This document shows positions 8,269 through 64,000 of a stretch of DNA of 64,000 bases, piece by piece. Under the pieces are notes generated by a model, which had not been told where the DNA came from, searched no databases, and saw only the letters and a program-made list of their open reading frames with translations. The position numbers and the translations under genes were made by a program. Source of the stretch: Corallococcus sp. AS-1-6 (lineage in GTDB: Bacteria; Myxococcota; Myxococcia; Myxococcales; Myxococcaceae); contig NZ_JAIQDE010000005.1 in assembly GCF_020037015.1 (NCBI RefSeq), positions 124,001 through 188,000 on the forward strand. The letters are read 5' to 3'. Each line of letters opens with the position of its first letter. Position 1 is the first letter of the stretch.

Positions 8269-10308
8269 TCACGGGTTGAACTGGATGAGCCCCATGTCCG
8301 ACAGCCCCGAGGAGGAGAACGTCGTGGCCCCCACCGGCGTGGAGCCCTCGAACGTGAAGCCCAGCCGCGTGGAGCCGTCCGGCGACACCGCCATGAACGC
8401 GTCGGAGACCTGGGAGCCCAGCATGCGCGACCAGCGGTGGGCGCCCGTGGGGCTGAAGCTGGCCACGAACCGGAGCGCGCCGCCCTGGGGCAGACCGGGC
8501 GTGCCCAGCTCGCCGCCGCCCAGGTCCAGCGTGTACGCCGACACGCGGCCGTTCACCACGATGTTGCCCGCGCCATCCACCGCCACCTGCTCCGCCACGT
8601 CCCCGGAGGGCTGGGTTGTCAGCACGCGCACCCAGCCCTCGCCGCCGGACGCGGTGAGCGTGCCGAACACGCCGTCATCCGGACGCACGTCGTGGGTGGG
8701 GTCATGGCTCGAATACGTCTGGCCCTGGAAGGTGAACGTCCCGTTGAAGCCTCCGGCGAACGCCACGCCCCCGTCGGGCAGGGCCGCCAGGCCGCGGATG
8801 CGGCCGATGCCTCCCCCCTTCAATCCGTAGCCCCACACCGGCGTGCCATCCGGCGCGAAGCGCGCCACGAAGGCCGTGCCCACGCGCAGGCCCGGCGTCG
8901 CGAGCGTGGCGTTGTTGCCGCGGCCCCCCATGAAGATGTTGCCCCCCGCGTCCGTGGCGAGCGCGGACGCCACCGTGTACTCGTCCACGGTGTAGAAGGC
9001 CTGCGACCACTGGTGGCCGCCGCTGTAGTCGAACTTCGCCAGGAAGAGGGACCGGGTCGAGTCATCCCGGCTCTCGCTCATCGAGCCCGCGTAGAGGTCG
9101 CCGCCGCCCAGGTCCATGTAGCCCTTGAAGTGGCCCGCGACGATGACGCTCCCGTTGGCGTCGGTGGCGACGGCGGTGGGGACGGCGATGGACGTGTAGA
9201 CCTGCCCCTCCGCCCAGCCCGGCCGCGTCTCCGCGTGGAAGCCGCGCGCCCAGACGGGGTTGCCGGTGGGGGACAGCTTCAGCACGAACATCCCCACCGC
9301 GGGGGTGTTGGGAGCGATGTACGGCAGCGCGCCGGTGCCCAGGTCCGGGCTGCCCTCGTAGGTGCCCACCACCAGCACGTTGCCCAGCGGCGTCACCGTC
9401 ATCGCCTCCAGGGACACCGGCTGCCCCACCCCGTACGCGCGCGACCACTGGTGCTGGGCCGCCGTGTTGAAGCGCGCCACCAGGAAGCCCGAGGGCCCCG
9501 GCAGTTCCGCGCCGCCCGCCTGCGCCGGGCCGTCATGGTACGCCCCACCCAGCACGAAGCCGGAGCCATCCGGCAGGTTGAGCAGCGCGCGCGCCTGCTC
9601 CCGCGCCGTGCCCCCCAGCGTCTTCGCCCAGGCCTGCGAGGGCGTGCCGCTCCCCCGGTACGTGCACCAGTCGTAGCGGTAGACCGTGTCCAACCGCGGC
9701 CGGCGCGAAACGTTGGACGCCTCGCGCGAGGAGAACTCCGCCCCGTCGTCCCCCAGCGGGAGGACGCCCAGGTCGAAGGTGTGGCGGTCGAGCACCGCCC
9801 CCTTCACGTCCGCCGTCAGCCAGGCGTCATTGGCGACGGAGGCCACGGTGGTCACCGCGGCGCCCTGCGCCGGCCGGGTGTTCCAGGTGAGGGCGGGCTC
9901 ATAGACGCTCCCCGTCACCGGGTGGAACGACAGCCCCGTGTGGGTGCCCTGCTTCGCGTACAGCCGCAGCCGCGCCTGGACGAGCTCGCCGCCCTCCCCC
10001 TCCAACTGGAAGCGCAGATACGACTGGTAGCGCGTGGGGGCCGCGTCCACGTACAGCGTGGACACGCTGCTCATGTTCACGTCCGGCTGGTCACTGCGCA
10101 CGGAACCGTCGCCCACCGGCACCAGCGTCCGTGAGTCCAGAGACGTCTGGGGCTGGCATGAGGCGGGCAGCGCCGCCTGCTCCACCGCCGTCAACGCCCC
10201 CTCCGTCAACCCGTCCTCCGCCCCTGTCGCTCCGCCGCACCGTGGCAGCACCGCCAGCATCGCCAACGCCGCTGCCCCCTGCGCTCCCCGCTTCCATCCG
10301 TTCCGCAT
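8269..10308 (-). CDS. Exported DNRLRE-domain / SBBP beta-propeller protein
   Basis: A 679-residue exported protein of unknown role. The start MRNGWKRGAQGAAALAM gives a signal sequence ending near LPRCGG, an atypical lipobox (Arg before Cys), so lipid anchoring is uncertain. Residues of about 45-200 look like a DNRLRE/CBM96-type beta sandwich (LYVDAAPTRYQSYLRFQLEG, LTWNTRPAQGA). From about 210 on come six or more imperfect repeats of the form GxxVVAGxFxGxxDLGGG (GNVLVVGTYEGSPDLG, GSVIVAGHFKGYMDLGGG, GGVAFAGGFNGTFTFQG), typical SBBP propeller blades. It sits between ftsH and folP, splitting a housekeeping block, and a terminator separates it from ftsH. An adhesion or surface role would be a guess. 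Confidence 0.75.
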   Translation of the reverse strand: MRNGWKRGAQGAAALAMLAVLPRCGGATGAEDGLTEGALTAVEQAALPASCQPQTSLDSRTLVPVGDGSVRSDQPDVNMSSVSTLYVDAAPTRYQSYLRFQLEGEGGELVQARLRLYAKQGTHTGLSFHPVTGSVYEPALTWNTRPAQGAAVTTVASVANDAWLTADVKGAVLDRHTFDLGVLPLGDDGAEFSSREASNVSRRPRLDTVYRYDWCTYRGSGTPSQAWAKTLGGTAREQARALLNLPDGSGFVLGGAYHDGPAQAGGAELPGPSGFLVARFNTAAQHQWSRAYGVGQPVSLEAMTVTPLGNVLVVGTYEGSPDLGTGALPYIAPNTPAVGMFVLKLSPTGNPVWARGFHAETRPGWAEGQVYTSIAVPTAVATDANGSVIVAGHFKGYMDLGGGDLYAGSMSESRDDSTRSLFLAKFDYSGGHQWSQAFYTVDEYTVASALATDAGGNIFMGGRGNNATLATPGLRVGTAFVARFAPDGTPVWGYGLKGGGIGRIRGLAALPDGGVAFAGGFNGTFTFQGQTYSSHDPTHDVRPDDGVFGTLTASGGEGWVRVLTTQPSGDVAEQVAVDGAGNIVVNGRVSAYTLDLGGGELGTPGLPQGGALRFVASFSPTGAHRWSRMLGSQVSDAFMAVSPDGSTRLGFTFEGSTPVGATTFSSSGLSDMGLIQFNP

Positions 10309-10459
10309 CGTCGTGTCGTCCCCCGACGAGGCCTTCCCAGCCCCGCGGTCCCTTGAAACTGCATCCCAGGTGCCAGCGAGCATCCGCTCGCGGACACGGG
10401 ACACGGCCCCCAGGGAGGGAAGGCGGAGGGCCCGGAGTGGCGCCTGGAGTTCACAAGGA

Positions 10460-10499
10460 CAAAACGAAAAGGCCCTCCCCGGTTCACGGGAAGGGCCTT
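10460..10499 (-). terminator. Rho-independent terminator after ftsH
   Basis: Read on the minus strand: AAGGCCCT, a short loop region, AGGGCCTT, then TTTTCGTTTTG. The arms at 10469-10476 and 10492-10499 are perfect complements. It lies 31 bases after the ftsH stop and before the propeller gene, so it should end the tilS-ftsH transcript. Confidence 0.8.
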
Positions 10500-10529
10500 C
10501 GTCACTTCAGGAGGAAGCCTTGAGCGGCG

Positions 10530-12446
<1,917 letters not shown>

Positions 12447-12627: not shown

Positions 12628-13998
12628 CTATAACGGAGGGGTCTTCCGTTCGCTCGTGAGCGGCGGGAAGGCCCACAGCGAGTGTCGGGAAGCCACCTCG
12701 CGCGAAGCGGCTCCAGGTTCGACGAAGCGCGGCAGGACGCCGGGGAGCCACAGCGGCTCGCCGCGCGCGTCCACCACCACCGGCTGCGCGTCGCGCGCCT
12801 CCGAAGGGACGCGGGCATCCACCAGCACGTCCTGCACCTTGCGGTGGCCCGCGCGCGTACGGACGCGGTCGCCCTGCTTCCTGGAACGCACCGTGAGTGG
12901 CCACGCTGTCCCCTCCTCCAACACCAGGGCCAACACGCCTGGGGGCGGCAAACCTTCCGCGGCCACCTGGAAGCGCCACGCGCCGAAGTCCCCTTGCGCC
13001 CCCGGCCCCGCGAGCACCAGCGGCGCGGGCGGTGATTCCCCTCCCGCCCCCACGCAGCGCACCCGCCCGCCGGTGGCCTTCAGGAGGAGGCCATCGCTCA
13101 GCGGCATGACGCCCCCGCGCGCCACCACGTCCCACGCGCGCTCCAGCGTGGCGTGGTCCACCCGGGCCCCCGCCGCGCCCAGCAGCCGTGCGAGCACGCG
13201 GCGCCACAGCGGCGGCTCCAGCGCGCGAAGGCCCACGGCGTCCAGCCCGCCCCCGGGCAGCTCCAGCCGCGCCCACGCCCCTTGCGCCAGCCCGTCGAGC
13301 AGGGCCGCGTCCTCGGAGGCGAGCCGCGCGAAGGTGGCCAGGTGCTCCACGGTGCTGAAGCCCGCCGCGCGATGGAGCGCGGGCAGCACGTCCTGGCGCA
13401 CGCGCGTGCGGAAGTAGGAGGGGTCCGCGTTCATCGGATCCACCACGAACCCCACCCCCTCGGTGGCCAGGAAGGCGAGCACGTCCTCGCGCGAGCACGC
13501 GAGCAGCGGACGGAGGAGCGTGTCCGCGCGGGCGTGGATGGCGCGCGCGCCCCGGAGCGCCGCGCCCCGGGCCAGCCGCATGAGCAGCGTCTCCGCCTGG
13601 TCGTCCAGCGTGTGGCCGGTGGCCACGAAGTCCAGCCCGCGCTCCTGTCGCAGGACCTCCAGGGTCGCGTACCTCGCCTCGCGCGCCCGCGCCTCCAGCC
13701 CCGCCCCGGGCGCCAGCGCGAGCCGCCGGACGTGGCAGGTCAGCCCCAGGCGCTCGGCCAGGCTGACGACGGAGGTCACCTCGCGCGCGGCCTCCGCCCG
13801 CAGGCCATGGTCCACCGTCGCCACCTCCACGCGCAGCCCCAGCGCCTCGCGCACGCGCGCCGTCCCCACGAGGAGCGCGGTGGAGTCCGCGCCTCCGGAG
13901 ACGGCGAGCAGCACCGAGCGCGAGCGGGCACCGTGCCCGGCATACGAGCGGGCGAGCATGGCAGGCAGCGGGGAGCTTTCAGGGGACGCGCGAGGCAT
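12628..13998 (-). CDS. tilS: tRNA(Ile)-lysidine synthase TilS
   Basis: Converts C34 of the minor tRNA-Ile(CAU) to lysidine using ATP and lysine, so that it reads AUA. The PP-loop SGGADST is at residues 34-40, followed by VDHGLR and GHTLDDQAETLLMRL, which identify the N-type ATP pyrophosphatase domain. The C-terminal region (about 350-456) includes a TilS_C-like stretch KQGDRVR with RKVQDVLVDARVP. Length 456 is normal. The first 15 or so residues precede usual TilS alignments, and Met14 is an alternative start. It heads the leftward block ahead of ftsH, a classical pairing. Confidence 0.95.
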   Translation of the reverse strand: MPRASPESSPLPAMLARSYAGHGARSRSVLLAVSGGADSTALLVGTARVREALGLRVEVATVDHGLRAEAAREVTSVVSLAERLGLTCHVRRLALAPGAGLEARAREARYATLEVLRQERGLDFVATGHTLDDQAETLLMRLARGAALRGARAIHARADTLLRPLLACSREDVLAFLATEGVGFVVDPMNADPSYFRTRVRQDVLPALHRAAGFSTVEHLATFARLASEDAALLDGLAQGAWARLELPGGGLDAVGLRALEPPLWRRVLARLLGAAGARVDHATLERAWDVVARGGVMPLSDGLLLKATGGRVRCVGAGGESPPAPLVLAGPGAQGDFGAWRFQVAAEGLPPPGVLALVLEEGTAWPLTVRSRKQGDRVRTRAGHRKVQDVLVDARVPSEARDAQPVVVDARGEPLWLPGVLPRFVEPGAASREVASRHSLWAFPPLTSERKTPPL

Positions 13999-14159
13999 GG
14001 CGCCAGCGATCGGAATGGAGTGTCGGATGACCGGGTTACAGATTCGCGGTGGACGGAAGGCGTGGGGATGCAGTCCATGATTCCCACAACGCAGGGACGC
14101 GGGGCGGAAATAGAACGGCGCCTCGTGGTTGTTGGTTGGACGTTCTGGACTTCATGACG
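13999..14159. other. Intergenic region upstream of tilS
   Basis: This is the first part of a 436-base gap between tilS (leftward) and the first ribbon-helix-helix gene (rightward). It should hold the tilS promoter and the promoter of the small RNA candidate to its right. No convincing -35/-10 pair was found by eye: TTGGAC at 14136-14141 is a possible -35, but no good -10 stands at the right spacing. The remainder of the gap, from about 14290 to 14434, holds no recognised element apart from the leader of the gene at 14435. Confidence 0.4.
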
Positions 14160-14286
14160 TTGGACCTAGGGGTCCCCCCCCTCCCCCTCTGGGTCCACGG
14201 GGCCGCTTGGAGATTCGCTCCCTGCGGTCCCTCTTTCCGAAGCGCCCCGGTCTCCCTCGCGGAGGCCGGGGCGTTTCTCTTTCTTT
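14160..14286 (+). ncRNA. Candidate structured small RNA with intrinsic terminator
   Basis: Three stem-loops follow each other on the plus strand. SL1: GGACC (14162-14166) pairs with GGTCC (14171-14175). SL2: GGGGCCGC (14199-14206) pairs with GCGGTCCC (14224-14231, one G-U) and encloses GGAG/CTCC (14209-14212 with 14218-14221). SL3 is a strong terminator hairpin. TGGACC at 14161 can instead pair with GGTCCA at 14192, giving an alternative fold. Between SL1 and SL2 lies an exposed C-rich run containing CCTCC-like sequence. No plus-strand gene exists upstream (tilS is leftward), so the terminator must end a transcript starting in this gap. The 5' end is not determined and the family is not recognised. 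Confidence 0.5.
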
Positions 14287-14287
14287 T
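14243..14287 (+). terminator. Strong intrinsic terminator
   Basis: CGCCCCGG (14243-14250) pairs with CCGGGGCG (14266-14273), with a further inner pairing CTCC/GGAG, followed by TTTCTCTTTCTTTTT. It is strictly oriented for plus-strand transcription and is not downstream of any annotated plus-strand CDS. Confidence 0.85.
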
Positions 14288-14434
14288 TGCTGGCACCCAT
14301 TGTCGGAAGTGGGGCGTTCAGCCCGCGGGCGCACGCTTGAGTGCTCCGAAACCGTTGACCCTTCAGGGCGTCTGTCGGATAACCGCTCCGGTGTGTTCAG
14401 GTCGTCACCTCGAATCCGCCCCGGAGACCCAGGC

Positions 14435-14644
14435 ATGGCAGGCACCGACAAGCGCAAGCAGTCGCTGTACTTCCCCGAGGAGATGCTGAAGGAGATCCAG
14501 GAGGAAGCGAACCGGCAGGACCGTTCCCTCTCATGGGTGGTGCAGCAGGCCTGGAAGATCGCCCGCGACCGCATCAAGTCATTCCCTGCCGTGAATGACG
14601 TCACGGGCGACGAGCGCACGGACCCGCGCGAAGAAAGGCCGTAA
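14435..14644 (+). CDS. Small ribbon-helix-helix-like protein, copy 1
   Basis: A 69-residue protein. The segment KQSLYFPEEMLKEIQ, then EANRQDRSLSWVVQQAW, fits one beta strand followed by two helices, as in Arc/CopG-type DNA-binding proteins. I believe it belongs to a myxobacterial family of small proteins catalogued as TIGR04563, but this is from memory and not checked. It is paired with a close paralogue nine bases downstream; the two share about 30 nearly identical positions. The start is the ATG in MAGTDKRKQ; the frame is open further upstream only through the small-RNA region. The target is unknown. Confidence 0.7.
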   Translation: MAGTDKRKQSLYFPEEMLKEIQEEANRQDRSLSWVVQQAWKIARDRIKSFPAVNDVTGDERTDPREERP

Positions 14645-14653
14645 GGCAGGGCA

Positions 14654-14935
14654 ATGGCCACCACGGATCACCGCAAGCAATCCCTCTACTTCCCCGAGGA
14701 CATGCTGGAAGAGATCCAGCGTGAGGCCACGCGACAGGATCGTTCCCTGTCGTGGATCGTCCAGCAGGCATGGAAGGTCGCCCGCGCGGACATCCGCCGC
14801 ATGCCTTCGGTCAACGACGTGCTGGGCCCCCTGCCTCCACGGCCGGTGGCCCCCGCGGCGCAGACGGCCACCTCCGCTCCGGCGGTGGTGACCTCCAGCG
14901 CCCCGGCCTCCTCGGACGAGCCCTCCAAGCCTTAG
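14654..14935 (+). CDS. Small ribbon-helix-helix-like protein, copy 2
   Basis: A 93-residue paralogue of the preceding gene, starting MATTDHRKQSLYFPEDML. The core through RSLSWIVQQAWKVAR matches copy 1 closely, and it adds an Ala/Pro/Ser-rich, probably disordered tail of about 40 residues. The nine-base spacing implies one transcript. A pair of near-identical RHH cores could form heterodimers; that is inference. It converges on the 5'-nucleotidase-like lipoprotein gene 48 bases on. Confidence 0.7.
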   Translation: MATTDHRKQSLYFPEDMLEEIQREATRQDRSLSWIVQQAWKVARADIRRMPSVNDVLGPLPPRPVAPAAQTATSAPAVVTSSAPASSDEPSKP

Positions 14936-14983
14936 GGGCTTCCGTCCACCCCGGCCCCGTGAAGTCCGACACCGCGCATGACG

Positions 14984-15814
14984 TCAGCGCGGGGCGGGCC
15001 GGGCGGGCCGGGCGCAGTTGGTGAAGACGATGCGCGGGGCTTCCTTCAGCGCCTGGACCGGGCTGGGGTACGTGCTCTTCATGTACGCCGCCGCGATGTT
15101 GGCGTCCGTGCCGCCCAGCTTGCGCGCCGTCACCGGGTTGCGGTCCGGGTCCTGTCCCGCGTTGCCCAGGATGCCGCCGTAGCCGTCCCCTCCCTCCAGC
15201 AGGAACGTGGACATCGCCACCCGGTAGCGGATGGACGCGTCGTCGCGCGCGGGGATGGACACGGCGCGCCCGCGCACGCGCAGCTCCGTCACACGCTGGC
15301 CCGCCGGACGCGCGCAGTCCACGCGCAGGGTGGTGCCGTCGGACACGTGGAGGAAGGCGCCGGACGGCGACACGATGGCCTGCCCCTCCAGGGCCAGCGC
15401 CTCCACGGAGTGCTCGAAGAGGTCCACGAGCTGCTTCTCCGTGAGGTCCACCGTCACGACGAGGTTCTCGAAGAGGATGACCTCGTGGAGGACGCCGTCG
15501 GTGAGCGGCCCCGTGCGCAGGGACGTGCGGGTGACGCACAGGCCCTCGTCGCGCAGCGAGCCGCCGTTGATGATGCCCAGCTCCGTGGCCTTCGCGGCGC
15601 CGTCCTCCGCGTGGAGGAACGCGTCCGCGGCCAACTGCCCCAGCGCGTTGTTGTCATGGCGGGTGAAGGCCGAGCCCAACTGGACCTCCTCGCCCAGGTA
15701 GCCCACGACGGCGTCGGGGTCGTCCACCAGCGGGGCGCAGGAGTCGTTGTACGCGAGGCAGCCGGGCAGCAGCGTGAGCGCCGCGAGCGCGGCGGTGAGG
15801 TGGCGGCGGTCCAT
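14984..15814 (-). CDS. Lipoprotein with orphan 5'-nucleotidase C-terminal domain
   Basis: A 276-residue lipoprotein (LTLLPGC lipobox near residue 19). Its whole mature part matches the substrate-binding C-terminal domain of UshA-type 5'-nucleotidases: the GNxxADA-like segment HDNNALGQLAADAFLHA, NGGSLRD, LTEKQLVDLFEHSVE, and YRVAMSTFLLEGGDGY near the end. The N-terminal metallophosphatase domain with the metal ligands is absent, so hydrolysis is not expected from this chain alone. Its ATG overlaps the TonB-receptor stop by one base (TGATG), so the two are translationally coupled and probably act together at the outer membrane. Confidence 0.8.
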   Translation of the reverse strand: MDRRHLTAALAALTLLPGCLAYNDSCAPLVDDPDAVVGYLGEEVQLGSAFTRHDNNALGQLAADAFLHAEDGAAKATELGIINGGSLRDEGLCVTRTSLRTGPLTDGVLHEVILFENLVVTVDLTEKQLVDLFEHSVEALALEGQAIVSPSGAFLHVSDGTTLRVDCARPAGQRVTELRVRGRAVSIPARDDASIRYRVAMSTFLLEGGDGYGGILGNAGQDPDRNPVTARKLGGTDANIAAAYMKSTYPSPVQALKEAPRIVFTNCARPARPAPR

Positions 15815-54894: not shown

Positions 54895-57800
54895 GTGTTT
54901 CCACACCAGAAGAGAAGCATTGCGTCAAGACACGGGAGGACCGTGCTCTTCGCCGCGCTCTGCGGCGTGATGGCCTGCGGGCCGCGCGCGCCCGGGGACG
55001 CGCCCGAAGCCACGGGCGCCACCGCCCAGGGCATCCAGATCGTCAACCTGCCGTACCGGGACAAGATCGTCCCCCAGCCCGTTGCTCCGCCCTCCCCCGC
55101 GTGCGCCCGGACCGTCAGCGCGGAGGTGGTGGCCCTGGATCAGGCCTACACCTACAACCGCCTGGGTTCCTACAACCCGACGGGGATGATCTACGCGCTC
55201 CGCGACGACGTGGAGGCCATCGACGGCAAGCCCGGGCTGATCCCCGGCAACGTCCGCCTGAAGCCGGACAAGCGCCCGCGTCCGCTCACGCTGCGCGCCA
55301 ACGTGGGGGACTGCCTCACGGTCGTGTTCCACAACATGCTGGCGCCCACGCGCTCGGCCATCCCCAGCCCGTCCCAGTCGCAGCCGGGCGTGAGCCGGGC
55401 GTCGGGCTCCAGCAATGGCTGGACGTTCCTGCGCAAGGTGCTCCCCGCCTGGGTGCTGACGCCCACGTATGACCGGGTCAAGTCGCTGCTCCAGAACGAG
55501 CCCGCGGGCGGCTTCTGGGTCGCGCTGGGTGACGAGGGCAAGTTCGACGACGCGCACCGCGAGGACTCTCCGGCCACGCGCACCGCGTCCATCCACGTGC
55601 AGGGCTTGCAGTACCTCACCATGGGCTCGGACGGGGCCTGGGTGGGCAAGAACGCCAGCAGCCTGGTGAGCCCGGGCGGCAGCACCACGTACACCTGGTA
55701 CGCGGACCACGAGGGGGTCTTCTTCTTCTACAGCATGGGCGCGTCGTTCGGCGGCCAGGGCGACGGCGGCTCCACGGCGCACGGCCTCTTCGGCGCCCTC
55801 AACGTGGAGCCGCCGGGCGCGCGGTGGTACCGCTCCAAGGTCACCGGCAAGGTGATGGAGGCCGTCACCACGTCCCGCAACCCGGACGGCACGCCCGTCA
55901 TCGACTACGAGGCGAAGGACGGCTCGGGCCGGCCGCTGCTGGCCATCCTGGACGAGGACAATCGCATCCGCCACGGCGACCTGGAGGCGCTCATCACCGG
56001 CTACAGCAGCACGGTGATGGGGACGTCCACGTCGCGCGACACCGGCAGCTTCCGCGAGCTCACCGCCATCTACCACGACGAGGTGAAGGCGGTTCAGGCC
56101 TTCGACGAGCTGGAGTGGAACCCCACGTTCCACAGCGTGCGTGACGGCTTCGGCATCAACTACGGCGTGGCGGGCCTGGGCGCGGAGCTGCTCGCCAACC
56201 GCGCGAAGATCGGCCCCACCAAGGACTGCGTCACCTGCGAATACGAGGAGTTCTTCCTGGAGTCGTGGGCCAACGGCGACCCCGCGATGAACGTGGAGAA
56301 GGACGCCTCCGGCCGCGCCACCCAGGCGCTCTACCCGGATGACCCCACCAACGTGCACCACAGCTACCTGGGGGACCCGGTGCGCATCCGCAACATCCAC
56401 GCGGGCCCCGCGGAGACGCACGTCTTCCACCTCCACGCCCACCAGTGGAAGTTCTCCCCCAGCGTGGAGGCGTCCAACTACCTGGACTCGCAGACCGTCG
56501 GGCCGGGCTCCGCCTTCACCTACGACATCAACTTCGGCGGCTCCGGCAACCGCAACTTCACCGCGGGCGACTCCATCCACCACTGCCACCTGTACCCGCA
56601 CTTCGCGCAGGGCATGTGGGCGCTGTGGCGCGTGCACGACGTCTTCGAGGCAGGCACGAGCGACCGCCTCCTCCCGGACGCGGAGATCAAGAACGGCACG
56701 CCCAACCCCGCCGTCGTCCCGCTGCCCGACCGGGCGATGCCGCCCATGCCCACCTACGCCAGCACCACCGTCACGGACGCCAACGGCCGGCCGGTGACGC
56801 GCCCGGCGTTCCCCGGCTACCCCTTCTACATCGCGGGCCTGGCCGGCCGCCGCGCGCCGCAGGCGCCGCTGGACCTGGAGTTCGACGGAGGCCTGCCCCG
56901 CCACATCGTCACGCGCGCCGTGGGCCCCGTGACGTACGGCGCCTCCGGCCGCTTCGACGTGGATCCCTCCGCGCTCAACATCAAGCTGCTGCCGCAGAAC
57001 GGCACCCCCCTGGAGCGCAACGCCATGGCGTTCCACTCGGGGAGCTTCCCCAACGCCTCCAGCGTCACCACGCTCTACGGCGACCTGGCGGCCGGCTACC
57101 CGTCCTACACGCCGCTGGGCGGCAGCGGGACGTTCACCGTCAACGGGCGCAAGCCGGTGGCGGGCGCGCCCTTCGCGGACCCCTGCCCGGAGAACGTGGG
57201 CGTGCGCAACTACCGCGCGGCCTATCTCCAGATCGACCTGCAGCGCATCAACCGCGCCGGGTGGCATGACCCGCAGGCCCGGCTGATGGTCCTCAACGAG
57301 GACGTGCCCGCGACCCAGGACGGCCTGCGCCCGCCGGAGCCCTTCTTCTTCCGGGCCCAGTCCGGCGAGTGCATCAACTTCTACGCGACCAACCTCATCC
57401 CCAAGCACCTGGAGCCGGACGCGTTCCAGATCTACACGCCCACGGACGTCATCGGGCAGCACATCCACCTGGTGAAGTTCGACGTCACGTCGGCGGACGG
57501 CGCGGGCAACGGCTGGAACTACGAGGACGGCACGCTGTCCTCCGACACCGTGGCGGAGCGCATCCACCTGGCCAACGCGGCCGGCGGCGCCTTCGCGGCG
57601 GACGGCGCCACCGGTGAGACGGGCACCCGGGTGACGCTCAGCGCCCCGGCGTCGCACCCGCGCATCAGCCGCGCGCCGGGCACGGCGCAGACCACGGTGC
57701 AGCGCTGGTGGGCGGATGACCCGACCCCGCAGCGCACGCTGGAGACGGTCTTCACGCATGATCACTTCGGCCCGTCGTCGCACCAGCAGCACGGCTTCTT

Positions 57801-60174
57801 CGGCGCGCTCATCGTGGAGCCCAAGGGCTCCAAGTGGCGCGACCCGCGCACGGGCGTCTACTACGGCTCGCGCGTGGCGGATGGTGGCCCCACCAGTTGG
57901 CGCGCGGACGTCATCACCGCGGACCCCAGCCAGAGCTTCCGCGAGTTCACCCTGGGCTTCATGGACTACAACCCGCTCTACGACGAGTGCGGCCAGCCGG
58001 TGAACCCTCCCAACTACAAGGAGGACGCGCTGCCCTGGGCGGTCGGCTTCGAGTCCGTCGCCATGCCGGAGGCCATCAGCGCCGCGGACCCGGGCGGCAT
58101 GATGATCAACTACCGCAACGAACCCATCCCGGTGCGAATCTCCTCGCGCTCCACGCGCTGCGGCACCCGCAAGCTGCTCGCCACCAAGGCGGGGGAGATG
58201 TCCAACGTCTTCCGCTCGGACATCCACGGCGACCCGTACACCCCGCTGATGGCGGGCTACGAGGGCGACCGCATCAAGATCCGCCTGGTCCAGGGCTCGC
58301 AGGAGGAGCAGCACAGCTTCAGCCTGCACGGGCACAAGTGGCTGCGCGAGGGAGGCGACCCGAACAGCGGCTTCCAGAACGCCCAGGCCATTGGCATCTC
58401 CGAGCACTTCGAGTTCGAGCTGACCGGGGGCCTGCCCGCCATCGGCGGCACCTACGAGACGGCGGACTACCTCTACATGAGCGCGTCCAACGGAGACCTG
58501 TGGAACGGCATGTGGGGCCTGTTGCGCACGTACCGCAACAAGCAGAAGGGGCTGCGCTCGCTGGGGGACGTGGCGATGCTCGCGGTGGACCTGAACCCGC
58601 GGCTGGATCTGGCGGTGTCAGCGGGAGGCAAGGAGCCGCTCCAGGCCTACCCGCCCGTGTCGCTGCTGGAGATGCCGGAGCGCGCGGGCCTGCCCCGGCT
58701 GAGCGAGGACGACGAGACCATCCAGGCCTCCTATGAAATCAACGAGAAGGGCGAGGAGGTGAAGCAGCGCACCGTGGCGTTCGCGCTGGAGGAGCGCGAG
58801 GCGATGCTGAAGATCGACCGCGAGCTGGTGCTCCAGTACGAGAGCAGCGGGAAGCTGGGCATCAAGCCGGTGAAGGTGGACTCGTGCCCCCGCAGCGCGC
58901 CGGTGCGGCTGTACACGGTGTCCGCCATCGACTCGCGCAACTGGCTGCCCGGCGGCAGGCTCGTCTACAACAGCAAGTACGGCTTCTATGATCCGGACGC
59001 GGTCATCTTCGCCCGCGACGAGTACCTGTCCGACCTGAAGCTGGGCAAGCGCGCGCCGGAGCCGCTCATCCTCCGCGCGCGGGCCGGCGAGTGCGTGCAG
59101 GTGGTGCTGACGAACCGGCTGCCCGCGACGGTGCCCACGAAGAAGGACGTGTGGGCGCACCACTCGGCCATCACGTCCAGCTTCAACGTCAACCAGACGC
59201 GGATGTCCAACCACGTCTCGCTGCACCCGCAGTTGGTCAACGTGGACGTGAACACGGACGACGGCGCGAACGTGGGCCTCAACGCCCAGCAGACGGTGCC
59301 GCCGGGCGCGACGCGCACGTACCGCTGGTTCGCGGGCGAGTTCAAGAGCTCCCCCTGGACGTCGCCGTACCCGGTGGGCCAGGTGACGCCCATGGAGTTC
59401 GGCATCGTCAACCTGCGCAACATGGCGGACGTGGTGAACCACGGCATGCACGGCGGCATCGGCGCGCTGGTCATCGAGCCGAAGGACGCGGACTGGAGCA
59501 CCGACCCCGGCACGGACGCGCAGGCGCGCGTGCGCTACACGCGCCCGGACGGCGGCAAGCAGACGTTCCGCGAGTTCGTCCTGCTCTACCAGGACGACCT
59601 GGGCCTGCACACCGACAACCCCCGCTTCCAGGACTCCGGCACCAGCGGCCTGAACAGCGGCACCGCGCTGCGCAACACCAGCGGCATCGACGACTCGCAG
59701 GACACCGGCCAGAAGGGCTTCAACTACCGCACCGAGCCCCTATGGGCCCGCCTGGGGGTGCCTCCGCAGACGCCGCCGGAGGACACGAACAACTACGACC
59801 TCACCGCCATCCTCAGCTCCGCCACCCATGGTGACCCGGCCACGCCGGTGTTCACCGCGAAGGTCGGTGAGCCGGTGCGCTGGCGCGTGGGACAGCCTTC
59901 CGGCCACTCGCGGCAGCACGCCTTCGCCATCCATGGCGCGGAGTGGCGCCGCAACCCGTGGGCCGAGGGCGCGCAGTCGCGGGTGATGGGCCCCAACGCC
60001 ACGTCGCCGGTCATCTCCACGCAAGGAGGCTCTTCGGTGATGCACCACTGGAACATCGTCCCGGAGTACGGCGCGGGCGGTGCCTACGGCGTCACGGGGG
60101 ACTACCTGTACCGCGACATGCCCAGCTTCCTCTGGAGCAGCGGCGGTCTGTGGGGCGTGTACCGGGTGGAGTAG
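54895..60174 (+). CDS. Giant multicopper oxidase lipoprotein (MnxG/MofA-like)
   Basis: A 1759-residue exported protein (GTG start, GAGGGGG upstream; lipobox VMAC). It is built of repeated cupredoxin pairs. The first set carries textbook copper sites: HVFHLHAHQW (H509-W518) and HHCHLYPHFAQGM (H562-M574), the HCHxxxHxxxGM signature of T1/T2/T3 centres. Later sets have related but altered sites: QHIHLV (856-859), HDHFGPSSHQQHG (955-967), HSFSLHGHKW (1140-1149), HHS (1422) with SLHPQLVNVDV, and HAFAIHGAEW (1675-1682). Size and layout resemble the manganese-oxidising MofA and MnxG. Genes for copper insertion and a cytochrome follow, so it probably oxidises metal ions or phenols at the surface. Confidence 0.82.
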   Translation: MFPHQKRSIASRHGRTVLFAALCGVMACGPRAPGDAPEATGATAQGIQIVNLPYRDKIVPQPVAPPSPACARTVSAEVVALDQAYTYNRLGSYNPTGMIYALRDDVEAIDGKPGLIPGNVRLKPDKRPRPLTLRANVGDCLTVVFHNMLAPTRSAIPSPSQSQPGVSRASGSSNGWTFLRKVLPAWVLTPTYDRVKSLLQNEPAGGFWVALGDEGKFDDAHREDSPATRTASIHVQGLQYLTMGSDGAWVGKNASSLVSPGGSTTYTWYADHEGVFFFYSMGASFGGQGDGGSTAHGLFGALNVEPPGARWYRSKVTGKVMEAVTTSRNPDGTPVIDYEAKDGSGRPLLAILDEDNRIRHGDLEALITGYSSTVMGTSTSRDTGSFRELTAIYHDEVKAVQAFDELEWNPTFHSVRDGFGINYGVAGLGAELLANRAKIGPTKDCVTCEYEEFFLESWANGDPAMNVEKDASGRATQALYPDDPTNVHHSYLGDPVRIRNIHAGPAETHVFHLHAHQWKFSPSVEASNYLDSQTVGPGSAFTYDINFGGSGNRNFTAGDSIHHCHLYPHFAQGMWALWRVHDVFEAGTSDRLLPDAEIKNGTPNPAVVPLPDRAMPPMPTYASTTVTDANGRPVTRPAFPGYPFYIAGLAGRRAPQAPLDLEFDGGLPRHIVTRAVGPVTYGASGRFDVDPSALNIKLLPQNGTPLERNAMAFHSGSFPNASSVTTLYGDLAAGYPSYTPLGGSGTFTVNGRKPVAGAPFADPCPENVGVRNYRAAYLQIDLQRINRAGWHDPQARLMVLNEDVPATQDGLRPPEPFFFRAQSGECINFYATNLIPKHLEPDAFQIYTPTDVIGQHIHLVKFDVTSADGAGNGWNYEDGTLSSDTVAERIHLANAAGGAFAADGATGETGTRVTLSAPASHPRISRAPGTAQTTVQRWWADDPTPQRTLETVFTHDHFGPSSHQQHGFFGALIVEPKGSKWRDPRTGVYYGSRVADGGPTSWRADVITADPSQSFREFTLGFMDYNPLYDECGQPVNPPNYKEDALPWAVGFESVAMPEAISAADPGGMMINYRNEPIPVRISSRSTRCGTRKLLATKAGEMSNVFRSDIHGDPYTPLMAGYEGDRIKIRLVQGSQEEQHSFSLHGHKWLREGGDPNSGFQNAQAIGISEHFEFELTGGLPAIGGTYETADYLYMSASNGDLWNGMWGLLRTYRNKQKGLRSLGDVAMLAVDLNPRLDLAVSAGGKEPLQAYPPVSLLEMPERAGLPRLSEDDETIQASYEINEKGEEVKQRTVAFALEEREAMLKIDRELVLQYESSGKLGIKPVKVDSCPRSAPVRLYTVSAIDSRNWLPGGRLVYNSKYGFYDPDAVIFARDEYLSDLKLGKRAPEPLILRARAGECVQVVLTNRLPATVPTKKDVWAHHSAITSSFNVNQTRMSNHVSLHPQLVNVDVNTDDGANVGLNAQQTVPPGATRTYRWFAGEFKSSPWTSPYPVGQVTPMEFGIVNLRNMADVVNHGMHGGIGALVIEPKDADWSTDPGTDAQARVRYTRPDGGKQTFREFVLLYQDDLGLHTDNPRFQDSGTSGLNSGTALRNTSGIDDSQDTGQKGFNYRTEPLWARLGVPPQTPPEDTNNYDLTAILSSATHGDPATPVFTAKVGEPVRWRVGQPSGHSRQHAFAIHGAEWRRNPWAEGAQSRVMGPNATSPVISTQGGSSVMHHWNIVPEYGAGGAYGVTGDYLYRDMPSFLWSSGGLWGVYRVE

Positions 60175-60272: not shown

Positions 60273-62279
60273 ATGCGCAAGCCCTTCGTTTTCGCCACCG
60301 CCGGTCTGCTGTCCACGGGCCTCCTCGCCGTGGGGGGACATGCCTTTCTCACGCGGGCCCCCGCCCAACCCTCCGAGCCCTCCGAGTCCTCCGAGCCTTG
60401 GGGCTCGCGACCAGCGCCCCTCACCGCGCCCGCCGCGAAGGTGACGCGCGACGGGGTGTCGCTCGCGTTCGACCTGACGTTGATGCCCCGGCGGATGGAG
60501 GCCGAGCAGGGCTCGCCGCTCCAGGCGCTCGCCCGCGTCGCCGTCACGGATGCCCGCACGGGAGAGCCGCTGGCGGGGCGCCGCCCCCTGGCATGGATGC
60601 GCCTGCGCCCCCCGGGCGAGCCTGCTCCGGACGACGCCGCGTGCAAGGCGCGGGTGCGCTCGTATCTGGGCGGGCTGCTGTCCGCGCAGGCGGACGTGGA
60701 TTTCAACGCGTACTGGTTCCTCACGCTCAATCACGACCAGACGGTGTCCGTCATCAACCCGCAGATCGCCTTCGACCGCACGAAGCTCCAGCACCTGGTG
60801 TCCGTGGGCGGCGGCGCGGCGGACTGGGCGCTGCTGCCGGACCGCTCCGCGCTGTACGTGACGGTGCCGGCGCAGGACACCGTGTCCGTGGTGGACACCC
60901 AGCGCTTCGTGGTGACGCGCCCGCTGCGCGTGGGGAGCCAGCCGGGGCGCATCGCGCTGTCCCCGGACGGCCTCACCGCGTGGGTGAGCAACGACGGCGA
61001 CGGCACGGTGAGCGTCATCGACACGCCCGCGCACGCCGTGCGCGACCCGGTGGACGTGGGGCCGGGCCCGCATGCCTTCGGCTTCTCCGACAGCGGACGC
61101 ACGGCCTGGGTCTCCGCCCGCGACGCCACGGCGCTGACGGCGCTGGACGTGGCCTCCGGCGAGGTGCTGGGCCAGGTGGAGGTGGGCGCGGGCGTCACAG
61201 CGCTGGCCTGGAGCGACGTGGCCCGGGCACTCTTCGCTTCAAGGCCCGGGGCGCGGGAGGTGGTGGTGGTGGACGCCGCGCGGCGCGAGGTGTCGCGCCG
61301 CATCCCGGTGAAGGGCGGCCTGGACGCGCTGCGCTTCGACAACACCGGCCGCTGGGCCTTCCTGGTGCACCGGGACACCCACACGGTGGACATCCTGGAC
61401 GCGGCCTCCGGCCAGGTGGCCCACACGCTCACCGGCTTCTCCGCGCCGGACTCCGTCGTGTTCACGGACGCCTTCGCCTACGTGCGCAACACCACCGACA
61501 GCCGCGTGACGCTGGTGGAGCTGAAGACGCTGGAGGGCACCGGCACGCCCGCCCAGGTGCACATCACCGCGGGGCAGCGCCCCGCCGCCGACGCACGGGA
61601 GCTGGGCCGCTCGGACCCCATCGCGCCGCTGCCGGAGGGCAATGGCGTCATCATCGCGGGCAACGCGGACCGCGCGCTGTTCCTCTACCAGGAGGGCATG
61701 ATGGCCCCACGCGGCACGCACCTGAACTACGGCCGCGAGCCCCGCGCGGTGAAGGTGTTGGACCGCTCACTGCGCGAGGCGGAGCCCGGCGTCTTCACCG
61801 CCCGGGGCAGCGTGCGCGAGAACGGCACCTATGACGTCCAGTTGCTGCTGGACAACCCCCGGGTCGTGGCGTGCCTGGAGTGGAAGGTGGGCCAGGTCCC
61901 GCTGGACGCGTCGCTCGCGAAGACGCTGCCCTTGAAGCTCACGCCGGAGTTCGACGCGAAGCGGACGTACGCGCCGGAAGAGACGGTGCCGCTGCGCTTC
62001 CGCCTGGAGCCCACCGCCGGCACGGGCGCGCCCGCGGTGGCGCCGGAGGAGATCCGCGTGCTGCTGTTCCGCACGCCCGGCACCTGGCAGGTGCGCACCG
62101 AACCCCGGCGCGTCGCGGACGGCGTGTTCGAGGTCGACTTCCGGCCGCCGTCGCCGGGCCAGTACAAGTTCGTGGTGGGCGTGGAGGGCCGGGGGCTGGA
62201 CCTCGGCCGCCTGCCCACCTCCACCCTCGGCGTGTCGTCCCCGCTCGCGGCCGCCGTCACCTCCGAGTCCACCCCATGA
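60273..62279 (+). CDS. YVTN-type beta-propeller protein
   Basis: A 668-residue exported protein with an N-terminal signal segment (FVFATAGLLSTGLLAVGGHAF). The centre (about 150-430) is a seven-blade YncE-like propeller with repeats such as SALYVTVPAQDTVSVVDTQ, LTAWVSNDGDGTVSVIDTP and RWAFLVHRDTHTVDILDAA. C-terminal, from about 500, are two beta-sandwich parts (ARGSVRENGTYDVQLLLDNPRV, VRTEPRRVADGVFEVDFRPPSPGQYKFVV), resembling FixH/YtkA-like domains. It is in the oxidase operon, 98 bases downstream of the oxidase gene, and its stop overlaps the SCO gene start (ATGA). It may dock the oxidase to its electron acceptor; that is inference. Confidence 0.78.
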   Translation: MRKPFVFATAGLLSTGLLAVGGHAFLTRAPAQPSEPSESSEPWGSRPAPLTAPAAKVTRDGVSLAFDLTLMPRRMEAEQGSPLQALARVAVTDARTGEPLAGRRPLAWMRLRPPGEPAPDDAACKARVRSYLGGLLSAQADVDFNAYWFLTLNHDQTVSVINPQIAFDRTKLQHLVSVGGGAADWALLPDRSALYVTVPAQDTVSVVDTQRFVVTRPLRVGSQPGRIALSPDGLTAWVSNDGDGTVSVIDTPAHAVRDPVDVGPGPHAFGFSDSGRTAWVSARDATALTALDVASGEVLGQVEVGAGVTALAWSDVARALFASRPGAREVVVVDAARREVSRRIPVKGGLDALRFDNTGRWAFLVHRDTHTVDILDAASGQVAHTLTGFSAPDSVVFTDAFAYVRNTTDSRVTLVELKTLEGTGTPAQVHITAGQRPAADARELGRSDPIAPLPEGNGVIIAGNADRALFLYQEGMMAPRGTHLNYGREPRAVKVLDRSLREAEPGVFTARGSVRENGTYDVQLLLDNPRVVACLEWKVGQVPLDASLAKTLPLKLTPEFDAKRTYAPEETVPLRFRLEPTAGTGAPAVAPEEIRVLLFRTPGTWQVRTEPRRVADGVFEVDFRPPSPGQYKFVVGVEGRGLDLGRLPTSTLGVSSPLAAAVTSESTP

Positions 62280-63400
62280 TGATTCCGACCCTGAAGCAGG
62301 CGGTATTCGCCCTGGCGCTGGCGTGCGCGCCGCTCGCGCACGCGCAGGAGGACGCGCGCGTGCCCCTCCCCTCCCCGCCCGCGGCCCCCGCGTCGCTGGA
62401 CGTGACGGTGCCGGACGTGACGCTGGTGGATCAGCACGGCCGGCAGGTGAAGCTGTGGTCGGACCTGGTGCGCGGGCAGACCGTGGCCATCAACTTCATC
62501 TTCACGCGCTGCAAGACCATCTGCACGCCGGTGACGGCGACGCTCGACCGGGCGCGCCAGCAACTGGGGCGCGGCGCCAACGTGCGCTTCATCTCCATCA
62601 CGCTGGACGTGAACAACGACACGCCGGAGCGGCTGGCGAAGTTCGCGGAGCCCTTCCATCCGGGCCCGGACTGGTCCTTCCTCACCGGAGAGCCCGCGAA
62701 GGTGAAGGAGGCGCTGGTGGCGCTGGGCGGGTATGTCCCGGACAAGGAGTCGCACCGGCCGCTCGTGCTCGTGGGCAACGCGCTCACCAGCCGGTGGACG
62801 CGCGTGGACGGGCTGGGCAGCCCCTCGCGCATCGTGGAGGCGGTGAAGGAGGCGCAGGCGTCCTCCGCCGCGCCGCCGGAGCTGGCGGCCGTGGACGGCA
62901 CGGCCGCCCAGGACGCCGCCGCGGCGAAGTACTTCACCAACACGGAGCTGGTGGATCAGCACGGCAAGACGCACCGCTTCTACGAGGACCTGGTGCGGGG
63001 CCGGACGGTGCTCATCAACTTCGCGTTCACGTCGTGCAAGGGTGCGTGCTCCCCCATCACGCAGCACCTGGCGGAGGTGCAGAAGAAGCTCTCGGCGCGC
63101 ATGGGCAAGGACGTGCACATGCTCACGCTCTCCGTGGACCCCACCAACGACACGCCCCGGAGCCTGGCGAAGTTCGCGAAGAAGTTCGGCGCGCAGCCGG
63201 GGTGGTACTTCCTCACCGGCTCGCGGGAGAACATCACGCTCGTGCTGAAGAAGCTCGGCGGCTACGCGGAGAAGCCGGACGAGCACAACACGACGCTGCT
63301 CATCGGCGACGCCTCCACGGGCATGTGGGTCAAGTCCCCGGCCATGGCGATGGCGGACAACATCGTCGCCGCGGTGGAACACCTGAACGATCCCCGGTGA
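62276..63400 (+). CDS. Tandem SCO1/SenC copper chaperone fusion
   Basis: A 374-residue exported protein with a signal peptide (cleavage near AHAQED) and two thioredoxin-fold SCO domains. Domain 1 (about 42-200) has the copper motif CxxxC as Cys79-KTI-Cys83 with His160; domain 2 (about 215-374) has Cys254-KGA-Cys258 with His337. All three copper ligands are therefore present in both halves. Single-domain SCO proteins are about 200 residues, so this is a true duplication and fusion. Coupled by ATGA overlap to the propeller gene and next to a multicopper oxidase, it probably loads copper onto that oxidase. Confidence 0.9.
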   Translation: MMIPTLKQAVFALALACAPLAHAQEDARVPLPSPPAAPASLDVTVPDVTLVDQHGRQVKLWSDLVRGQTVAINFIFTRCKTICTPVTATLDRARQQLGRGANVRFISITLDVNNDTPERLAKFAEPFHPGPDWSFLTGEPAKVKEALVALGGYVPDKESHRPLVLVGNALTSRWTRVDGLGSPSRIVEAVKEAQASSAAPPELAAVDGTAAQDAAAAKYFTNTELVDQHGKTHRFYEDLVRGRTVLINFAFTSCKGACSPITQHLAEVQKKLSARMGKDVHMLTLSVDPTNDTPRSLAKFAKKFGAQPGWYFLTGSRENITLVLKKLGGYAEKPDEHNTTLLIGDASTGMWVKSPAMAMADNIVAAVEHLNDPR

Positions 63401-63411
63401 GGGAGCACGGC

Positions 63412-64000
63412 ATGCGGCAAGGGCGCGGTGGCGGAACGGGGGCGGGATGGAGCGTGGTGCTGGTGCTCGTGGCCGGACTGCTGGGGACCGGTTGCAGGCG
63501 CGAGGCACCTCCGCGGGCCGCGACACCCGAAGAGGTGAAGCGCGGGCGCGCCTTCTTCCAGCGGGGCCAGTCCCCCCAGGGCTCGCCGCTCACCGGCTTC
63601 CTGGGGCCGGAGCGGGTGGAGCTGGAGGGCGCCGTCGCCGCGTGCGCCCGCTGCCACGGGCCCTCCGGGCGGGGCAGCCGCGAGGGTGGCGTGGAGGTGC
63701 CGGACATCACGCCCGGCTCGCTCCAGCACGCGCGCGCGGTGGGACTGGAGGACATCGAGGACCGCTCCCGCCCCGCGTACACGCGCGCCACGCTGCTGCG
63801 CGCCATCATGGAGGGCGTCTCCGCCAGCGGCCGCCCCCTGGGCGTGGCCATGCCGCGCTACGCGCTCGCGAAGGCGGACGCGGACGCCCTGCTCGGCTAC
63901 CTCCAGACGCTGGACGCGGCGCCGGATCCCGGCCTCTCCGCGACGACGCTCACGGTGGGCGCGGCGCTGCCGTTGACGGGGCCGCTGGCGCCGCTGGGGC
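63412..64000 (+). CDS. Lipoprotein cytochrome c fused to a periplasmic binding-protein domain (3' end outside window)
   Basis: A partial gene starting 11 bases after the SCO gene; 196 residues are visible. The signal ends LLGTGC (Cys28). A monohaem cytochrome c domain follows, with CARCH (Cys78, Cys81, His82) and a probable distal Met147 in GVAMPRYAL, ending around GYLQTLDAA. From about residue 178 the sequence TLTVGAALPLTGPLAPLG reads like the start of a branched-chain amino-acid-type (Leu/Ile/Val) substrate-binding protein. The fusion would combine electron transfer with ligand binding. It belongs to the oxidase operon by spacing and strand. Confidence 0.8.
   Translation, partial: MRQGRGGGTGAGWSVVLVLVAGLLGTGCRREAPPRAATPEEVKRGRAFFQRGQSPQGSPLTGFLGPERVELEGAVAACARCHGPSGRGSREGGVEVPDITPGSLQHARAVGLEDIEDRSRPAYTRATLLRAIMEGVSASGRPLGVAMPRYALAKADADALLGYLQTLDAAPDPGLSATTLTVGAALPLTGPLAPLG

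Follow-up and report, generated by a model that had tools for sequence, protein, structure and literature searches.

A MofC-like fusion of cytochrome c and a periplasmic binding domain in a MnxG-type multicopper oxidase operon of a Corallococcus strain

The last gene of the 64,000-nt window analysed here, a stretch of Corallococcus sp. AS-1-6 (contig NZ_JAIQDE010000005.1; G000:C54:124001-188000), encodes what we identify with high confidence as a MofC-like protein that joins a cytochrome c domain to a periplasmic binding protein (PBP) domain and forms the fourth gene of a MnxG-type multicopper oxidase (MCO) operon. The fusion is of a known kind, here found in a myxobacterium, because the same operon order and the same pair of domains have already been published. 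New are the co-occurrence of the oxidase and the fusion across the order, the loss of the ligand residues in nearly all fusions and the finding that, in the oxidase-linked groups, conservation of the binding cleft does not exceed that of the rest of the domain.

Results

A haem domain joined to a complete binding-protein fold

The open reading frame starts with an ATG at 63412 on the forward strand, 11 bases past the stop codon of the preceding SCO gene, and crosses the end of the window. The N-terminal 196 residues lie inside (63412..64000, +), and the gene continues for another 1,010 bases to a stop at C54:189010 (equivalent to 65010), giving 532 residues in total. A signal peptide with a lipobox-like Cys28 occupies 63412..63495 (+); the −3 residue is imperfect (Gly), and other members of the same branch (group A) have a cysteine at the same place, often with a better lipobox. 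The cytochrome c domain spans residues 76-167 (63637..63912, +) as judged from conservation and from a match to Pfam Cytochrom_C (PF00034) of modest score (22.9 bits, the cut-off being 21.3; E 2.2e-4). It carries the only CxxCH of the protein, the haem motif CARCH at residues 78-82 (63643-63657, +), and an axial methionine, Met147 of AMPRY (63850-63852, +), both at the residues assigned to them by the sequence-only reading. The CxxCH is kept in all full-length fusions (54 distinct sequences) and the axial methionine in 52/52 fusions of groups A–C and in 21/21 sequences of alignment A1; groups A–C comprise 52 of the 54 fusions, the sequences L038 and L039 being left out.

In a profile search of solved structures, the cytochrome domain matched the cytochrome subunits of fructose dehydrogenase (7w2j_C, E 6.8e-9) and glucose dehydrogenase (8hdd_B, E 1.6e-4). 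Only part of the domain was aligned, and both are multi-haem subunits of flavin dehydrogenases, unlike the window protein. The second domain is far beyond chance: Peripla_BP_6 (PF13458) matches residues 179-515 with E 4e-32 and 112.7 bits against a cut-off of 31.7, the domain beginning within the window (63946..64000, +). In an AlphaFold model of residues 28-532 (pLDDT 82, pTM 0.75), the C-terminal domain forms the whole two-lobe fold, and model residues 144-505, compared with type I binding proteins of the PDB, align best with 4n03 (Z 32.5, rmsd 3.9, 350 residues). The strand reminiscent of Leu/Ile/Val-binding proteins that had been noticed just before the window end is therefore the entrance to a complete type I fold; the sequence beyond the window, on which that earlier reading depended, continues in frame and holds the fold rather than lacking it. 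Likewise confirmed is the proposal of a haem protein and a binding fold joined in one probable lipoprotein.

Both domains are retained, since dN/dS stays below 0.4 in 5/5 pairs (0.12-0.38 for the cytochrome, 0.16-0.35 for the PBP part). An origin by chance or as a frame artefact was rejected on the basis of the fold, these ratios and the orthologues.

A four-gene operon with a giant oxidase

The fusion is the last of four genes on the same strand, in the order MCO, propeller, SCO and cytochrome-PBP, separated by 98, −4 and 11 bases. The first encodes a giant oxidase of 1759 residues with a lipoprotein-like N-terminus (Cys28; 54895..60174, +), a trait likewise found in the other group A oxidases. 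It is followed by a YVTN/YncE-type beta-propeller of 668 residues with an N-terminal signal or anchor (60273..62279, +; PF21783; TIGR03866 91.8 bits, profile scores computed with a start seven codons upstream of the one adopted) and by a tandem SCO1/SenC copper chaperone (62276..63400, +), the start of which shares 4 bases with the end of the propeller gene. The chaperone has the CxxxC motifs CKTIC at 79 and CKGAC at 254 and matches PF02630 in two stretches (E 3.2e-39, computed with a start one codon later than the one adopted).

We call the oxidase MnxG-type, not MnxG, because its 954.8 bits against the MnxG equivalog NF041487 fall under the NCBI cut-off of 3100 bits, which none of the 145 genomes of the order surveyed reaches (0/145). 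Thirteen His, Cys and Met positions, which we take to be those of the copper sites, are strongly kept: H509, H512, H514, H563, C564, H565, H569, M574, H856, H858, H955 and H957 in 26/26 full-length homologues and H516 in 25/26. Judged by its sequence, the oxidase is related to bacterial manganese oxidases; naming it a manganese oxidase would exceed the evidence.

Downstream and convergent to the operon lie a histidine kinase and a response regulator, for which the best NCBIfam matches are heavy-metal types, under the respective cut-offs. Past the window end, at a distance of about 4 kb from the operon on its downstream side, there is a second MCO gene (L005:15314-16756, −), CopA-like by TIGR01480 (181.8 bits, under the cut-off). 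A promoter scan returned one promoter-like site, located inside the MCO gene, and a terminator scan of the locus gave fewer terminator-like sites than were present in shuffled sequences.

Published relatives of the operon

The gene order is shared with the mnxG operon of Pseudomonas putida GB-1, which, in the accessible text of PMC11409713 (Table 4), consists of mnxG, a YVTN propeller, two SCO genes, a cytochrome-PBP gene and SurA; the cytochrome-PBP gene there (641547574) is annotated as "Amino acid/amide ABC transporter substrate-binding protein, cytochrome c domain". Set against that table, the two loci differ in that the SCO domains form one fused protein in the window and two genes in GB-1, and in that the cytochrome-PBP gene is followed here by one for a histidine kinase, on the opposite strand, and there by SurA. 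Further differences are the score of the window MCO, 955 of the 3100 bits asked by NCBI for MnxG, and the lipoprotein-like character of both the MCO and the fusion. A similar operon is described for Pseudomonas sp. OF001, where the corresponding gene is drawn as "ABC transporter" and MofC is called a cytochrome c domain protein (PMC8218464, available sections).

MofC-like proteins from the OmpB/MofA clusters of Leptothrix, Geobacter and Gallionellaceae are reported in PMC5566968 (section 13) to have a cytochrome c and a periplasmic binding domain; their genes neighbour that of a large extracellular MCO and, in part of the clusters, a SCO gene, as in the window. That they take part in the oxidation of Mn(II) or Fe(II) is put forward there as a hypothesis. 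The window protein has the N-terminal cytochrome c, the C-terminal binding domain and the context of a large MCO and SCO. Its likeness to MofC is one of description, resting on domains and gene context, and the MCO here is MnxG-type. The earlier judgement that such a combination is uncommon was thus half right, in that the combination is recurrent and already in print (PMC5566968). The accessible text of PMC11930936 does not name the partners in the mnxG operon. A literature search on myxobacteria and manganese oxidation returned no related report, and the papers covered, to which most subscription papers do not belong, contained no experiment on, or deletion of, the cytochrome-PBP gene.

Co-occurrence with MnxG-type oxidases

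We surveyed 145 genomes of the order, calling MnxG-type oxidases at E 1e-60. Such an oxidase was found in 33 of them, each of which also encodes a fusion of group A or group B (33/33), and single-protein and profile searches found no group A or B fusion in the other 112. Intact group C fusions are present in at least six of these 112 oxidase-free genomes, three detected by single-protein search (G010, G024, G137) and three by profile search (G022, G032, G036); G001, with a partial profile match, stands outside this count, and G106 and G117 (C-terminal fragments) and G027 (a binding protein without haem) were left out as not being intact fusions. Fisher tests of the co-occurrence gave 2e-33 for groups A and B and 7e-27 for any intact fusion, values that are nominal because the genomes are related.

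The 45 fusion neighbourhoods lean towards myxobacteria, the loci coming mostly from relatives of the window. On the same strand as the fusion they contain an MnxG-type MCO in 32/45, the propeller in 33/45 and SCO, the most constant neighbour, in 42/45. The 13 without an MnxG-type oxidase comprise two that run off the contig end (L043, L050), six of group C, L051, L054, L038 and both L081 genes. A Cu-oxidase_3-type MCO takes its place in four of the six group C neighbourhoods (L036, L037, L064, L065), and a motif scan found no MCO in L063 and L067. Across 27 loci, pairwise distances of MCO and fusion correlate with r 0.98, not corrected for species history, which fits inheritance of the two sequences as one unit. 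A related two-component pair, convergent at the window locus, lies in the stretch of 15/45 fusion genes.

Several loci depart from the common arrangement. L054 (G074:C1:8982000-8999500) and L051 (G084:C3) retain propeller, SCO and fusion with no adjacent MCO, and both genomes have an MCO elsewhere. The betaproteobacterial stretch L081 has two fusion genes (9899-11503, +; 13483-15069, −) with neither MCO nor SCO, near a glutamine synthetase gene, and a gap of Ns adjoins the first of them. In two species only the C-terminal end of the binding part was found, as fragments of 127 and 71 residues with 69 and 76% identity at L073 (G106:C29) and L077 (G117:C12); these are likely relics of a lost operon. 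The cytochrome part alone was matched by profile at G015:C1:1113063-1113452, G017:C5:63289-63663 and G021:C68:32926-33300, possibly haem-only relatives devoid of the binding domain. In Paraburkholderia (L037:18879-22314; gspG, gspF and a gspE-like gene) and Indioceanicola (L038:2788-5685; the secretin GspD), the fusion has genes of type II secretion at a distance of no more than about 12 kb, perhaps belonging to a system that secretes the oxidase.

Loss of the ligand residues and state of the cleft

The window protein has the fold and the Peripla_BP_6 profile in common with substrate-binding proteins of the Leu/Ile/Val type (LIV-BPs) and differs from them in its lost ligand residues, its fused haem and the lack of an adjacent permease. 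We compared five alignment positions that we take to be the ligand-contact residues of LIV-BPs. Among the 54 distinct fusions, the expected residue is present at these positions in four (S/T), two (T), two (Y), none (Y) and one (D/E); the corresponding numbers among 22 ordinary LIV-BPs of the order, two from the same genome and 20 hand-picked relatives, are 22, 22, 21, 19 and 22. L066, a PBP without haem, is also missing most of the five, and the loss therefore means "not a Leu/Ile/Val binder", not "no ligand". In the tree bearing on whether the fusion arose once, ordinary LIV-BPs are placed among the fusions and sit at the end of long branches.

We took the cleft, without coordinates, to be the 39 positions that surround the ligand loops. 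By this definition its mean entropy matches that of the remaining domain in group A (1.12 versus 1.10, p 0.79; 28 sequences, mean identity 0.61) and comes close to it in group B (1.64 versus 1.57, p 0.47; 15 sequences, mean identity 0.41), whereas the cleft of ordinary LIV-BPs is the more conserved part (0.59 versus 0.98, p 0.003; identity 0.65). The best-conserved windows of the A and B binding domains, residues 214-225 and 494-505 (the latter, in P0001, being PPVSFGVNRRVG), lie outside the ligand loops as we defined them. Group C has a cleft that is better conserved than the rest (0.67 versus 0.98, p 0.024), as computed from the nine sequences of alignment A4 (L036, L037, L063, L064, L065, L067, L111, L113, L116), and a Cys-x6-Cys that is invariant among them (C260 and C267 as numbered in L037). 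Its structure model is poor (pLDDT 58), yet can be matched to PBP folds (best E 3.7e-8); its profile, searched against solved structures, matched only two cytochromes. The conserved cleft led us to dismiss the idea of a PBP domain degenerate throughout the family. In the alphaproteobacterial L038 and L039 the PBP part is shortened, with a Peripla_BP_6 match below the cut-off or absent. Together these comparisons offer new evidence, at the level of sequence, that in the branch of the window protein the binding domain has probably ceased to be an amino-acid receptor while its fold has been retained under selection.

Discussion

We tentatively propose, with somewhat less than even confidence in the mechanism as a whole, that the fusion is the redox partner of the MCO and uses its PBP fold for docking or assembly. 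Judging from its family, the SCO protein would load copper into the giant oxidase. Oxidase and fusion both resemble envelope lipoproteins in sequence, and the His/Met haem could exchange electrons with the oxidase, most likely taking them from the type 1 copper, or from the oxidised metal, and passing them into periplasmic cytochromes. The PBP fold, presumably no longer an amino-acid receptor given its lost residues and ordinary cleft, would then be a docking module that keeps the haem close to its partner enzyme. O2 is reduced by multicopper oxidases on their own, for which a cytochrome is in principle not needed. Also against a redox partner are the cassettes without an adjacent MCO in L051 and L054 and the two L081 genes without MCO or SCO, and the cleft of group C, better conserved than the rest of its domain, is a further observation on that side.

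The main rival, in our estimation rather unlikely, makes the fusion a maturation factor: the haem domain and SCO would together control whether copper, or the SCO thiols, are oxidised or reduced while the apo-oxidase is loaded, with the PBP domain holding the apo-enzyme. A model for such a function is provided by the PBP-like MxaJ/XoxJ proteins, which are thought to assist methanol dehydrogenases. Genes resembling assembly factors recur in the operons, namely the tandem SCO of the window and, in the accessible literature, SurA in Pseudomonas and the peptidyl-prolyl isomerase MofB in Leptothrix; moreover, SCO is not only the most constant neighbour but stays when the class of MCO changes to the Cu-oxidase_3 type in four of six group C loci. 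The proximity of SCO and cytochrome is, however, equally expected of a redox partner, and the propeller has no known assembly role. A ligand-gated redox sensor or receptor, in which a small molecule or metal chelate on the PBP domain alters electron transfer by the cytochrome, seems improbable to us. It could draw on the whole fold under purifying selection, on the two-component pair near a third of the fusion genes (15/45) and above all, for the MofC-like group C, on the conserved cleft with its Cys-x6-Cys; it is at odds with the loss of ligand residues, with the unremarkable clefts of groups A and B and with the shortened PBP part of L038 and L039. The sequence-only reading had suggested such a redox-coupled sensor or receptor, and in this it was not supported: the ligand residues are gone, the cleft is conserved in ordinary relatives but not specially so in the oxidase-linked groups, no branched-chain permease gene was found on the window contig, and the fusion keeps company with the operon of a multicopper oxidase. 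A small-molecule receptor is unlikely because of the co-occurrence with the MCO, the ligand-residue loss and the unconserved cleft of the oxidase-linked groups.

Least credible, to the point of being very nearly negligible, is an ordinary substrate-binding protein of an ABC importer with an incidental cytochrome domain. The Peripla_BP_6 match above the cut-off is what would be expected of one, but no LIV-type permease gene is adjacent, and the four BPD_transp_2 permease matches of the genome are on contigs C65 and C11 only, the C65 pair adjoining a binding protein of its own; on these locations the importer was rejected. The ligand residues are lost, and the distributions differ, an ordinary binding protein being present in 102/117 genomes of the order and the patchy fusion in 5/16 of the same-genus genomes listed.

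The need for a c-type cytochrome in bacterial Mn(II) oxidation has been a question since 1998: ccm mutants of P. putida lose both c-type cytochromes and Mn(II) oxidation, and the available text of PMC9634551 offers three hypotheses, electron transfer and a part in an outer-membrane complex among them. Both of these would fit a cytochrome encoded in the oxidase operon. The cytochrome bands raised by Mn in gels of Pseudomonas MOB-449, at about 29, 22-23, 16 and 14 kDa, were assigned to PetC, CcoO, CcmE and cytochrome c5 in that text; none has the size of the cytochrome-PBP protein, and its authors favour such respiratory cytochromes. Mutation of mnxG in GB-1 only slowed Mn oxidation (PMC3056050, accessible part), and the full loss in ccm mutants therefore needs more than a partner of MnxG. 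We regard the cytochrome-PBP protein as a candidate, among others, for the c-type cytochrome on which Mn(II) oxidation by Pseudomonas depends.

At its furthest, and in a form we hold to be speculative and unlikely as a whole, the finding would mean that a nutrient receptor was rebuilt into an arm that carries haem and docks to giant copper oxidases, with a cleft freed from ligand binding, and that this is a long-sought c-type cytochrome helping to explain the loss of Mn(II) oxidation in ccm mutants; in the MofC-like branch the cleft would have been refitted with the invariant Cys-x6-Cys, perhaps to suit a metal or the oxidase.

Being encoded in the operon of the oxidase itself, and present in all 33 oxidase-bearing genomes surveyed in the order, the fusion is an obvious candidate for the c-type cytochrome needed in Mn(II) oxidation, and the family offers a tractable case of a binding-protein fold held by selection after the loss of its amino-acid site.
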